A stretch of DNA of 14,363 bases from an archaeon (GTDB lineage Archaea > Iainarchaeota > Iainarchaeia > Iainarchaeales > CSSED10-239), in NCBI GenBank assembly GCA_023230325.1, contig JALNXN010000015.1, forward strand, positions 1 to 14,363, written 5' to 3'. Under the pieces are notes generated by a model. That model did no database searches, was not told the origin of the DNA, and was given only the letters and a program-made list of their open reading frames with translations. The position numbers and the translations under genes are program-made. This document shows positions 1-14,363 of this stretch, one piece after another. The first letter of the stretch is position 1; every line of letters starts with the position of its first letter.

Positions 1-437
1 TTAGCCTTGATGGTGGTTGTGCTTGTTAGACTAAAAGGGCCTGTGTAAAGGTTACTCTGCTCAGTTGGAACAGAGCTATCAGTTGTGTAGTAAATCATTG
101 CATTTGCAGTCTCACTTGTCATGCTCACACCCACTGAAGAAAAATAATTTCCTGAAGCCGGAGAGACAACAGGTGAAGAAACAACAGCTGGAGATGTAAT
201 TGTGTAAGTGTTTGTAACAACTGAACTTGGAGTCATACCACTCTTAAAAGCCTTAGCCTTGATGGTGGTTGTGCTTGTTAGACTAAAAGGGCCTGTGTAA
301 AGGTTACTCTGTTCAGTTGGAACAGAGCTATCAGTTGTGTAGTAAATCATTGCATTTGCAGTCTCACTTGTCATGATCACACCCACTGAAGAAAAATAAT
401 TTCCTGAAGCCGGGGAAACAACAGGTGAAGAAACAAC
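1..437. repeat. Near-identical direct repeat, 252-bp period, inside the surface-protein gene
   Basis: Positions 1-185 match 253-437 with four mismatches that I can count (60/312, 124/376, 162/414 and 165/417), about 98% identity. The period is 84 codons, so the reading frame is kept and exactly one CHB_HEX-type module plus linker is duplicated. The array may continue beyond the left edge. Such low divergence implies a recent duplication or gene conversion. Confidence 0.95.
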
Positions 438-842
438 CATACTTTGGTCTAATACACTTTCAGGCATATCAGAGGAAACATCAATTATCTTATTTGCTTT
501 TCCTTGAGACAAGTTTGGGAATATGTTACTGTTGTTATTTATAACCAAAAAAGAAATTACTAAGATAATTGCAAAGATAATTATAATGCTTAAGGCTAAA
601 AGAGATTTGTTTAAAGAGAATTTTAAAGGCTTAGTTTTAAGGCTTAGATTTTTAGATTCAGATTTTAAATTTAAATTAGATTTTCTAGAATCTACTTTAT
701 TTGACTTTTTAATATTTGGGTTACTTACTTGCTTAGGTTTACTCTTTTTATTAAGAGTAGAATTTAAAGTAATATTTTTTTTACCTCCTTTTTTATCTTT
801 TGATTTTAGTTTGCCTTTGGAGGTTAATTTATTTTTAGCCAT
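1..842 (-). CDS. Partial membrane-anchored surface protein with tandem CHB_HEX_C-type beta-sandwich domains
   Basis: The reading frame is open from an ATG at 842 to the left edge (280 codons), so the C-terminus is missing. An AGGAT ribosome binding site lies 5 nt upstream of the ATG. Residues 1-75 are very rich in Lys, Ser and Asn. One hydrophobic segment follows at about 78-100 (LLALSIIIIFAIILVISFLV), then a Ser/Thr/Val/Pro-rich exterior part. That part carries two nearly identical ~84-residue modules containing SPASGNYFSS, AMIYYTTDSSVPTE and LYTGPFSLTSTTTIKAKAF. This is the pattern of the chitobiase/beta-hexosaminidase C-terminal family, an Ig-like accessory domain of secreted proteins. The charge layout suggests a cytoplasmic N-terminus, one membrane anchor and an extracellular stalk. 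The activity, if any, would lie in the missing C-terminus. The gene is transcribed away from the 51-residue ORF at 1043. Confidence 0.85.
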   Translation of the reverse strand, partial: MAKNKLTSKGKLKSKDKKGGKKNITLNSTLNKKSKPKQVSNPNIKKSNKVDSRKSNLNLKSESKNLSLKTKPLKFSLNKSLLALSIIIIFAIILVISFLVINNNSNIFPNLSQGKANKIIDVSSDMPESVLDQSMVVSSPVVSPASGNYFSSVGVIMTSETANAMIYYTTDSSVPTEQSNLYTGPFSLTSTTTIKAKAFKSGMTPSSVVTNTYTITSPAVVSSPVVSPASGNYFSSVGVSMTSETANAMIYYTTDSSVPTEQSNLYTGPFSLTSTTTIKA

Positions 843-7778: not shown

Positions 7779-7790
7779 GTCTATTCCCTT

Positions 7791-7875
7791 AGAGTCTATT
7801 TTTTACCTTTTTTAGAGTCTATTTTTTACCTTTTTTAGAGTCTATTTTTTACCTTTTTTAGAGTCTATTTTTTAC
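7791..7875. repeat. 23-bp tandem repeat array between aglB and the GPT gene
   Basis: Units start at 7791, 7814, 7837 and 7860. The first three are identical 23-mers and the fourth matches for 16 bp. On the transcribed (minus) strand each unit has AAAAAAGGTA followed by AAAATAGACTCT. The real GPT leader just before the ATG, AAGGGAATAGACATG, resembles the same unit, so the array may have grown from the ribosome-binding region. There are no unique spacers, so this is not a CRISPR. Confidence 0.95.
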
Positions 7876-7960
7876 TTTATCTTTTTTATCAAAATTCCTT
7901 TTATTTAAATTCTTTTTTTCAAAATCTTTTTAACTCTTAATATAAAATGATTTTACTTTT

Positions 7961-12349: not shown

Positions 12350-13141
12350 ATGCAAAAAGAACTATATTGTTTAATGCTAAAATATGGGTTTAGACCTGAC
12401 CATAAGTTTGATCAAAACTTTATAATTAATAAAAACATTATTGACAGAATCATAGAGCTTTTAGATATTAAACACACAGAAACTGTTCTTGAGATAGGAC
12501 CAGGAACTGGACATCTTACTAAACATCTTCTTGAAAAGGCAAAAAAAGTAATTGCTATTGAAAAAGATAAAAAATTAATTGATATTTTAGAAAAGGAAAT
12601 AGTTGATAGCCGATTAGAAATTATAAGCGCTGATTTTCTAAAAGTTGACCTAAATAATTTAAAATTTGATAAGATTGTTGGGCTTATTCCTTACTCAATA
12701 TCTCAAGAAATAATTGAAAAGATAATAGGCACAAAAAAAGCAGTCTTAGTTGTTCAAAAAGAATTTGCAGAAAAGCTTGTGGCATGTGAGGGCTTTGAAA
12801 ATTATGTGGGGACAACTGTTATTGCACAAAGTTATAGTGAAATTAAATATGTTTCTAAGATTAAGAAAGGTTCTTTTTATCCAGTACCAAAAGTTGACTC
12901 TGCAATTATAGAGATTGCACCTAATGGTGCTAAGATTGACAGCACCTATAAAGAATTTGTAAAAAATCTATTTAGGTACTCAAATAAAGATCTTCTTAAT
13001 GCAATAAAACTAATTATTAAAAACCAACCAACACTTTTTTCAAAAATAGATGCTATTAAAGTTCCAGAAGAATTACTTAAAAAAAAAGTAAAGCAATTAA
13101 ATATTAAAGAAATAAAAAAAATATATTCTTCAATATTTTAA
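12350..13141 (+). CDS. rsmA: RsmA/KsgA/Dim1-family rRNA adenine dimethyltransferase homologue with altered NLPY motif
   Basis: The 263-residue product is a class I SAM-dependent methyltransferase of the KsgA/Dim1 family. It has the KFDQNFI start block (19-25), SAM motif LEIGPGTGHLT (47-57), acidic E71 in AIEKD, D95 in SADF and the late block FYPVPKVDSA (176-185). Normal members dimethylate two adjacent adenosines in helix 45 of 16S rRNA during small-subunit maturation. Motif IV, usually N-L-P-Y, reads G111-L112-I113-P114-Y115: the catalytic Asn position is Leu (codon CTT), while Pro and Tyr are kept. The rest of the family core is intact, so it may be a ribosome-assembly factor with altered or lost methylation. 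Context after DUF655 is the standard archaeal one. Confidence 0.9.
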   Translation: MQKELYCLMLKYGFRPDHKFDQNFIINKNIIDRIIELLDIKHTETVLEIGPGTGHLTKHLLEKAKKVIAIEKDKKLIDILEKEIVDSRLEIISADFLKVDLNNLKFDKIVGLIPYSISQEIIEKIIGTKKAVLVVQKEFAEKLVACEGFENYVGTTVIAQSYSEIKYVSKIKKGSFYPVPKVDSAIIEIAPNGAKIDSTYKEFVKNLFRYSNKDLLNAIKLIIKNQPTLFSKIDAIKVPEELLKKKVKQLNIKEIKKIYSSIF

Positions 13142-13214
13142 AATAAGAATATAATTATATTAAATTAATAAAAGTTACTTTCAAAAGGATTGTTATTTGC
13201 GGCAGCAAATTTCC

Positions 13215-13232
13215 CGGCCCCTCTCGGGGCCG
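13215..13232 (-). other. Perfect GC hairpin 1 (7-bp stem, GAGA loop on minus strand)
   Basis: CGGCCCC and GGGGCCG pair perfectly around a 4-nt loop that is TCTC on plus and GAGA on minus. Flanking AAATTT at 13207-13212 and 13235-13240 can extend the stem past a 2x2 internal loop. It lies 3' of the FGE/lectin-like gene, in a short island of 41 G+C in 70 bases. It lacks a following T-tract, so a simple terminator is unlikely. Confidence 0.85.
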
Positions 13233-13248
13233 AAAAATTTGGCTTGAA

Positions 13249-13270
13249 CCGCCTTTCTCTCGAAAGGCGG
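13249..13270 (-). other. Perfect hairpin 2 (9-bp stem, GAGA loop on minus strand)
   Basis: CCGCCTTTC pairs with GAAAGGCGG around TCTC (GAGA on minus), the same C-G-closed tetraloop as hairpin 1, with only 16 bp between the two. The stems are unrelated apart from the loop and its closing pair, so this is not a simple duplication; the loop itself looks selected. On the FGE/lectin-like coding strand this hairpin comes first, about 125 bp past the stop codon. Confidence 0.85.
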
Positions 13271-13338
13271 ACGAAAAAAAATTTTTGCTCATTGCTCGCA
13301 TCCTACTCAATCACTTTTCACAAAATAGACATCTGTTT

Positions 13339-13367
13339 CCCGATTTGCCGATAGCCGATAACCCGAT
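13339..13367. repeat. Four short CCGAT repeats in the 3' flank of the FGE/lectin-like gene
   Basis: CCGAT begins at 13340, 13348, 13355 and 13363 (spacing 8, 7, 8). On the gene's strand this is ATCGG repeated four times within 29 bp, between the stop codon and the hairpins. I recognise no known element. Confidence 0.7.
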
Positions 13368-13394
13368 AAAATATTATATTTTTGAAATATATTT

Positions 13395-14363
13395 TTAAGG
13401 AACTACTGCACAGCGAAGGCCGATGCTGCTGCTCAGGCGCGCCGAGGAATGGCTCAAAAGCAGAGCCAAGAGCCCGGAAGTAGAGCTCTCGTTCCAAGCA
13501 CCGCCCCGCAGAAAAACTCTTGATGAAGTTGAGTTGTCATTACTATATGTAAACACCCTTCCAACACCATTATTACCTGCATTATAATTACCACTTGTTA
13601 ATAAAAACAAATCTTTATATTTTAAAGTAGTATTTCCTAAATTACTTGAAGTTATATATCGTCCAGCACCCCCACCTTTTGAATAATCAAAAAGTACATA
13701 ACCAAAATAAGAACTATCATCCACATCATAAAAGCCATCAGGCTGGTCTTCTAAAGTAATATTATCATCAGTCCATTCCCAAACATTCCCAGCTAAGTCC
13801 CAAATTACCTCTCCATTAGTTAAAGTTAAGGTTCTTCTTTGAGGTCCTGATGTTTGACCAGTTCCTGCATAACCATTTGTATCAATTGAGGCTTCTAAAG
13901 CATTATATGGTTTACTATCATTGTGTCCTGAATAAATATGACCTTCTCCAATTGTTCCACTTGACCAGTTACTTGGAACTTGTTCTATGTTTCTTGCAAG
14001 GGTCATCCATTCGTTGTTGGTTATTAGATGACCGCCTATACTCTCACAAGCTGCTATTGATTCAGTTTGTTTTATATATGTCAAAGGATAACCTTCTGGA
14101 CTTGAAACTAAATTAAAGTCAGAATAACTACAACCTGCTTCATTGTTTTTCCAAACTCCAAATGAAAATTCTTGATCTTGACAATCAGTATTGCTATCTC
14201 CTATACCATCTCCATTTTGATCAACTTTCATTTCATATTTTGCAACACAAAAACCCATACTGCTGTCGTTTGTAGTGTCATATAAGAAGTTTCCTGGAAC
14301 TGGGATAAAGCCTTCTGGACAGTTTCTTGGTTGTCTGTTGGTGGTTTTCATTCCTGTCTTTGT
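13395..14363 (-). CDS. Partial FGE-sulfatase/C-type-lectin-fold surface protein, probable DGR-type variable protein
   Basis: The frame is open through the right edge, and the first ATG (14351) has no proper ribosome binding site or signal peptide, so the N-terminus is missing. Numbering here is from that ATG (318 residues to the stop). FGE-fold landmarks are CPEGFIPVPGNFLYD (11-25), FCVAKYEMKV (34-43), GGHLITNNEWMTLARNI (106-122), IWDLAGNVWEWTDD (183-196) and FLRGGAWN (280-287), ending IGLRCAVVP. D44-x-N-G-D48-x-x-x-D52 looks like a calcium-binding loop. The active-site cysteines of true formylglycine-generating enzymes are absent from the C-terminus, so the fold probably serves binding. Residues 287-309 are Ser/Leu-rich and encoded by a GC-rich tract. 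Seven N-x-S/T sequons (N28, 128, 144, 197, 240, 273, 287) make it a likely AglB substrate. Confidence 0.85.
   Translation of the reverse strand, partial: TKTGMKTTNRQPRNCPEGFIPVPGNFLYDTTNDSSMGFCVAKYEMKVDQNGDGIGDSNTDCQDQEFSFGVWKNNEAGCSYSDFNLVSSPEGYPLTYIKQTESIAACESIGGHLITNNEWMTLARNIEQVPSNWSSGTIGEGHIYSGHNDSKPYNALEASIDTNGYAGTGQTSGPQRRTLTLTNGEVIWDLAGNVWEWTDDNITLEDQPDGFYDVDDSSYFGYVLFDYSKGGGAGRYITSSNLGNTTLKYKDLFLLTSGNYNAGNNGVGRVFTYSNDNSTSSRVFLRGGAWNESSTSGLLALLLSHSSARLSSSIGLRCAVVP
13410..13513 (-). other. Putative DGR variable region at the 3' end of the FGE/lectin-like gene
   Basis: The codons from LRGGAW (281) to LRC (314) sit in a tract with 59 G+C in 100 bases (13401-13500), against about 20 in 60 just upstream (13621-13680). 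The frame RGGAWN, then G-L-L-A-L, then I-G-L-R-C-A matches the layout of lectin-fold variable regions in DGR target proteins. In those, template Asn (AAC/AAT) codons are scrambled at the adenines. Here the matching codons are CTT, AGC, CAT, CGC and AGC three times, each reachable from AAT or AAC by changing only the adenines. No template repeat is in the window to confirm this. Confidence 0.6.

Follow-up and report, generated by a model that had tools for sequence, protein, structure and literature searches.

The gene at the right end of the window (the whole 14,363-nt stretch of archaeal DNA that was analysed) is very probably the target of a diversity-generating retroelement (DGR), whether that element is still active or not. 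The initial annotation had assigned the gene to this class, and the assignment is supported by the DGR cassettes of its relatives, by the adenine bias of its differences from their templates, by the hypervariability of the corresponding columns and by a flank of the variable-repeat (VR) type. The following features were delineated:

13395..14363, minus strand: probable DGR target (variable protein) gene with an FGE-type C-type-lectin domain; the 5' end is lost at the window edge
13399..13518, minus strand: VR, delimited by comparison with locus L001, whose VR/TR repeat is 121 nt long
13425-13499, minus strand: template-Asn columns inside the VR, from alignment to the relatives' templates
13399..13424, minus strand: IMH-like 3' end of the VR; the relatives' version is TCGGCCTGCGCTGNGT
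13335..13394, minus strand: target-site flank, of the VR-flank and not the TR-flank type by alignment to relatives
13339..13367, minus strand: four ATCGG(G/C) units with spacings of 8, 7 and 8 nt
13249..13270, minus strand: perfect hairpin with a stem of 9 bp and a GAGA loop (GRNA type) on the sense strand, located about 128 nt past the VR
13215..13232, minus strand: perfect hairpin with an all-GC stem of 7 bp and a GAGA loop on the sense strand, located about 166 nt past the VR
12350..13141, plus strand: ksgA (PF00398), convergent neighbour, given as context outside the element

The variable gene and its repeat

The target ORF occupies positions 13395-14351 of the minus strand when read from its ATG (318 aa) and 13395-14363 when left open at the right edge (322 aa); since many full-length relatives among the matches listed are about 450 aa long, the gene is truncated by the window edge. 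Its product matched the Pfam FGE-sulfatase model PF03781 with 32.1 bits (cut-off 23.3), as expected from the FGE/C-type-lectin fold first proposed for it, and its C-terminal segment is RGGAWNESSTSGLLALLLSHSSARLSSSIGLRCAVVP. The reported jump in GC content at the 3' end was reproduced: the final 114 nt, which start with the RGG codon at 13508 and include the stop, have a GC content of 0.605 vs 0.346 in the upstream coding part. The two active cysteines of FGEs, which we take to lie between RGG and GLRC, after RGGxW, are missing, as had been stated: this interval contains no Cys. The convergent orientation of ksgA relative to the target gene was also correctly described.

The contig carries core genes for AglB/STT3, KsgA, Nre, a MinD/ParA-type ATPase and 5S rRNA. 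The AglB of the window had an identity of 54-56% with those of genomes G001, G002, G011 and G012 of the phylum Forterrea, which is part of Iainarchaeota; in the other genomes, identity over an alignment of similar length did not exceed 44% (87 genomes compared, 78 with a match). The left-edge gene (window 3-842) encodes a hydrophobic helix and CHB_HEX_C_1 domains and contains 98%-alike repeats 252 nt apart; at both ends, the contig breaks within or close to repeated sequence. Intergenic 23-nt tandem repeats were found at 7789-7901.

The VR is placed at the 3' end of the gene, within the C-type-lectin fold, and its end resembles the IMH-like VR ends of the relatives. In a pattern scan of four genomes (G001, G002, G011 and G012), the relatives' motif, with at most two mismatches allowed, turned up in two, G001 and G002, and there at no sites other than the known VRs and TRs. 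Twelve window codons are aligned to template Asn codons of the relatives, of which 11 have C or T as third base and could have arisen from AAC or AAT through adenine changes alone, whereas the twelfth, GAG (Glu), is outside this reach; the earlier claim that all variable codons are so reachable therefore holds for 11 of the 12. The variable segment had been placed at 13425-13491, and its start was retained, whereas the alignment extends its other end slightly, to 13499. One of the reachable codons, that for Ala of GLLAL, is fixed or nearly fixed as Ala in the closest relatives, so the template codon there is probably not Asn. As a guess from the relatives, the window's own template may encode approximately RGGNWNN..SGLLALNLNN....NLNNNIGLRCAVVP.

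Comparison of the window with the templates of three relatives revealed changes at 63-66% of template adenines and at 21-24% of other bases (p from 8e-5 to 1.5e-4); these templates are the relatives' and not the window's own, hence the differences at non-A positions. When the part of the gene that precedes the VR was compared in this way with the genes of the relatives, the frequencies were 0.28-0.30 for A and 0.33-0.34 for other bases, so the adenine bias is confined to the VR. With the relatives' VRs as reference, the bias was weaker (p = 0.02, 0.055 and 0.085), which was counted against the favored explanation. Column analysis was performed on the 97 of 120 listed homologs that had an ungapped 33-residue segment (23 were dropped), 95 of them distinct and used. 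Mean entropy was 3.20 in the 12 template-Asn columns vs 1.17 in the other 21 columns (p = 2.3e-6), and E, K, Q, M and W were nearly absent from the former. Residues unreachable from AAY made up 10 of 1140 in the Asn columns, the window Glu being one of the ten, vs 14% in the rest of the proteins; in the other VR columns, they numbered 110 of 1995.

No template copy of the VR was found within the 14,363-nt window, and the ORF list of the window contained no ORF resembling a reverse transcriptase (RT). The intergenic region 13142-13394 was ruled out as a template, its sequence being flank and not a copy of the VR.

The target-site flank and its repeats

The 60 nt following the stop codon aligned with the VR flanks of loci L001, L057 and L058 with scores of 52, 38 and 53, none of which was reached in 1000 shuffles each, and among 520 window stretches scored against these flanks, only the one over the flank scored as high. 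Against two template flanks, the scores were unremarkable, 136 and 385 of 1000 shuffles, respectively, scoring at least as high. The relatives' VR flanks contain four GACGG units (spacing 9, 8 and 8), and the GACGG string, with at most three mismatches, occurs in G001 and G002 only behind the three VRs. All four ATCGG units of the window deviate from those of the relatives identically, which suggests that the repeats are kept alike; it should be noted that this spacing pattern was picked after the window sequence had been seen. Generic periodicity of the flank was not significant (p = 0.19; 511 of 2860 window segments of this AT-rich sequence were as high).

Three hairpins of the kind searched for were found in the window vs 0.07 expected, namely, the two GAGA hairpins listed above and a third at window 307-327 with a 5-nt loop. 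According to the accessible part of Guo et al. (PMC3240598), such elements in phages have GC-rich stems of 7-10 bp and GRNA loops and lie 4-34 bp from the VR, so the distances of about 128 and 166 nt are unusual. L001 and L057 have an AT-rich hairpin where the window has GAGA hairpins, which was likewise counted against the favored explanation. A hairpin immediately after the stop codon was rejected as not significant (z = -1.22 in the window and 1.16, 0.93 and -0.34 in L001, L057 and L058, respectively).

VR/TR pairs were gathered from at least 98 loci, mostly viral contigs with a template-like pattern; in at least 79 pairs, 1041 of 1073 mismatches were at A, the adenine bias being also a selection rule. 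The first set comprised 80 of at least 120 listed stretches, and removal of redundancy among these left 60 flanks at 75% likeness and 45 at 65%. Among the stretches listed, a generic repeat score at p 0.05 was reached by 19 of 60 VR flanks vs 1 of 60 template flanks. CTG recurred there at 7 or 8 nt within 60 nt past the VR (84 of 108 spacings), and at least two such spacings were present in 25/60 VR flanks (20/45 in the stricter set), 0/60 template flanks (0/45) and 16/6000 random segments of the same contigs (20/4500). The CTG core had been chosen on the first set. The remaining 40 stretches, kept apart and analysed later, gave 35 pairs with 17 flanks dissimilar to all earlier ones; here the pattern was found in 9/17 VR flanks, 0/17 template flanks and 7/1700 random segments, again among the stretches listed. 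With the same scope, 32 of 60 VR flanks of 90 nt contained GC-rich hairpins vs 6 of 60 template flanks (2.1 expected), and in 22 of these 32 VR flanks the loops were GATA, GGTA or GAGA. The template flanks of the listed stretches were rich in the words CAGAA and GCCAG, which may belong to the template RNA. In a second target class, presumably DUF1566-like (35 loci, 25 pairs), CTG repeats were found in none of 20 non-redundant flanks; a CTTT core chosen post hoc occurred in 6/20 VR flanks vs 0/20 template flanks, and the generic score reached p 0.05 in 4/20 vs 1/20.

Relatives, paralogues and the origin of the variation

Three archaeal cassettes combine a relative of the gene (55-60% identity) with two small ORFs, a template and an RT, in this order. 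Cassette L001 belongs to Candidatus ainarchaeum STF1_257, its RT truncated by the contig end, whereas L003/L057 and L058 lie within a complete Forterrea genome. The VR/TR mismatches in L001, L057 and L058 numbered 18, 13 and 20, with 50 of the 51 at template adenines. The second small ORF of L001 matched the Avd model above cut-off; an additional small ORF precedes the Avd-type ORF in all three cassettes (L001:1809-2219, L003:11222-11608 and L058:2687-3094), and its L001 copy had no clear family match. VR/TR pairs were also present in the bacterial CPR loci L007 and L017 (13/13 and 12/15 mismatches at A). Of 87 genomes of the phylum, four had a match to the target gene, and RT matches at 1e-30 were likewise obtained in four; in both cases, the strong matches came from the same two genomes. 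Five strong copies of the target gene were found in the two relatives' genomes; one, L059 (the third FGE gene of Forterrea), has a C-terminus without the VR pattern, lost or never there, and was discarded as a precedent for a remote target.

Two loci have other arrangements. In L002:5585-5950, a target VR is followed directly by a template-type flank and RT; no template was found, and no Avd-like ORF intervenes, an arrangement that would reflect either VR/TR recombination or an assembly join. In L040:2925-4310, a pilin-like target gene adjoins phage-like structural genes in a viral contig, preceded by what we take to be an argS-like gene and a transposase-like ORF pair; no RT match was found in this 22,980-base record.

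The predicted structure of relative P0002 has a long N-terminal helix followed by a beta domain, the order found in the archaeal type IV pilins 6w8u, 8fk7 and 8q30. Among 40 relatives, seven matched Pfam Pilin_N (weakly, best E 0.0017) and five N_methyl (best E 3.3e-7); the pilin fold by VIA-align was weak. The window protein may thus have had a pilin-type start that is cut off here. Among the matches listed, P0002, P0003 and P0025 are identical to the first ~60 residues of the window protein and P0004 and P0041 to ~45 of them, and P0004 is truncated within one residue of the window's cut. All six proteins are without a named source, and their likeness suggests several paralogous targets whose common front part broke the assembly. 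Very different front parts, presumably LamG-like, are joined in P0016, P0017, P0030, P0038 and others to the same lectin end as in the archaeal pilin-like proteins, perhaps through domain swaps between viruses and hosts.

We consider it probable, though with distinctly less assurance than the identity of the gene, that it is a Forterrea-like (Iainarchaeota) DGR target whose VR is rewritten in trans and whose product is a pilus-like, lectin-tipped surface protein. The VR would be the last ~120 bp of the gene. An RT and Avd encoded elsewhere in the genome would copy the template repeat into cDNA with misreading of template adenines, and the mutated cDNA would replace the VR. The target site would be marked by the VR 3' end and the conserved flank, with its AT-rich spacer, four phased repeats and, perhaps, the GAGA-loop hairpins. 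The product would probably begin with an N-terminus like that of type IV pilins, continue with a beta domain and end in a C-type-lectin tip, the binding face of which would be randomised and may contact ligands.

The main competitor, unlikely but of appreciable weight, is a fossil target, in which the VR was made by a DGR, the RT or template has since been lost and the sequence is now fixed. The window contains neither RT nor TR, and none of the best 120 of 6901 RT matches carried the '-' source mark shared by the window protein and its five close paralogues, a weak argument against the presence of an RT in this assembly, the meaning of the mark being certain only for the window's own proteins. 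VR sites without an RT have been described in Nanoarchaeota, and the authors, in the available part of the report (PMC4372165), left both readings open. Against fixation, the gene has kept its reading frame as well as the VR end and the flank, and P0002 and P0004 combine the window's front stretch with different VR residues. The five proteins that match the window front fully or over ~45 residues and diverge behind it could also point to cassette exchange between paralogues as the source of variation; this is improbable in the extreme, since recombination alone gives no reason for change limited to template-A positions and would not exclude E, K, Q, M and W from the Asn columns. Scarcely credible is that the gene encodes a conventional FGE/EgtB-like enzyme whose C-terminus is GC-rich, given the template/RT link found in the relatives.

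Comparison with known systems

The preferred reading, a DGR target rewritten in trans, has several counterparts. The DGRs of Nanoarchaeota DUSEL4 and virus ANMV-1 are archaeal, like the relatives' cassettes, and the DUSEL4 target sites with cis elements but without RT resemble that of the window (PMC4372165, in the part available). The DUSEL4 hairpins, according to the same portion of PMC4372165, have GRA trinucleotide loops, are located within the target gene and accompany a TGGGGT IMH motif, whereas the GAGA loops and ATCGG repeats of the window are both past the stop codon. Thermus aquaticus TaqVP (5vf4) had an identity of 22% over the alignment; the relatives of the window gene add a pilin-like front. 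The Bordetella phage BPP-1 DGR (Mtd, AY029185) is alike in its RT, Avd, TR and VR with IMH and perhaps in its downstream hairpin (PMC3240598, in the portion accessible) but has a VR-hairpin spacer of 4 bp, a phage tail fibre in place of a pilin, and two CTG and one CTTG within the VR end known as IMH in place of a longer array after the VR.

A tentative generalization, possible but on balance doubtful, is that at FGE/RGGxW-class DGR sites a cis element between VR and hairpin marks the recipient and sets the direction of copying, and that the archaeal target is a type IV pilin with a family of tips rewritten in trans by an unlinked RT. This element would consist of about 3-5 short repeats phased at 7-8 nt (approximately WNATCTG in phages, GACGG/ATCGG in these archaea); the repeats would be putative binding sites, and the 21-bp IMH element of BPP-1 a worn form. 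In the literature searched, no description of phased repeats between VR and hairpin was found, nor of pilin-fused archaeal DGR targets; Paul et al. (2017) may have described pilin-type targets before. For Bacteroides, pilus-tip proteins that adopt a C-type-lectin fold are already published, as are DGR targets homologous to them (PMC6199706, in its available part).

In the part of Roux et al. (2021) available (PMC8144416), archaeal clade-5 DGR targets are described as typically without a recognisable transmembrane or other conserved domain, their membrane attachment is left undecided, and the authors' own approach is said to miss RT-less remote targets in fragmentary assemblies. The pilin-type front part would provide a testable answer to the membrane question, namely, variable pilus-like tips in archaea of a presumably host-dependent kind. 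Should the phased repeats be functional, they would aid in finding RT-less remote targets in fragmentary assemblies and would be a candidate mark for the direction of DGR homing. If the tip of the surface protein is indeed rewritten by a retroelement, the cell of this small-genome archaeon could keep altering what it sticks to.
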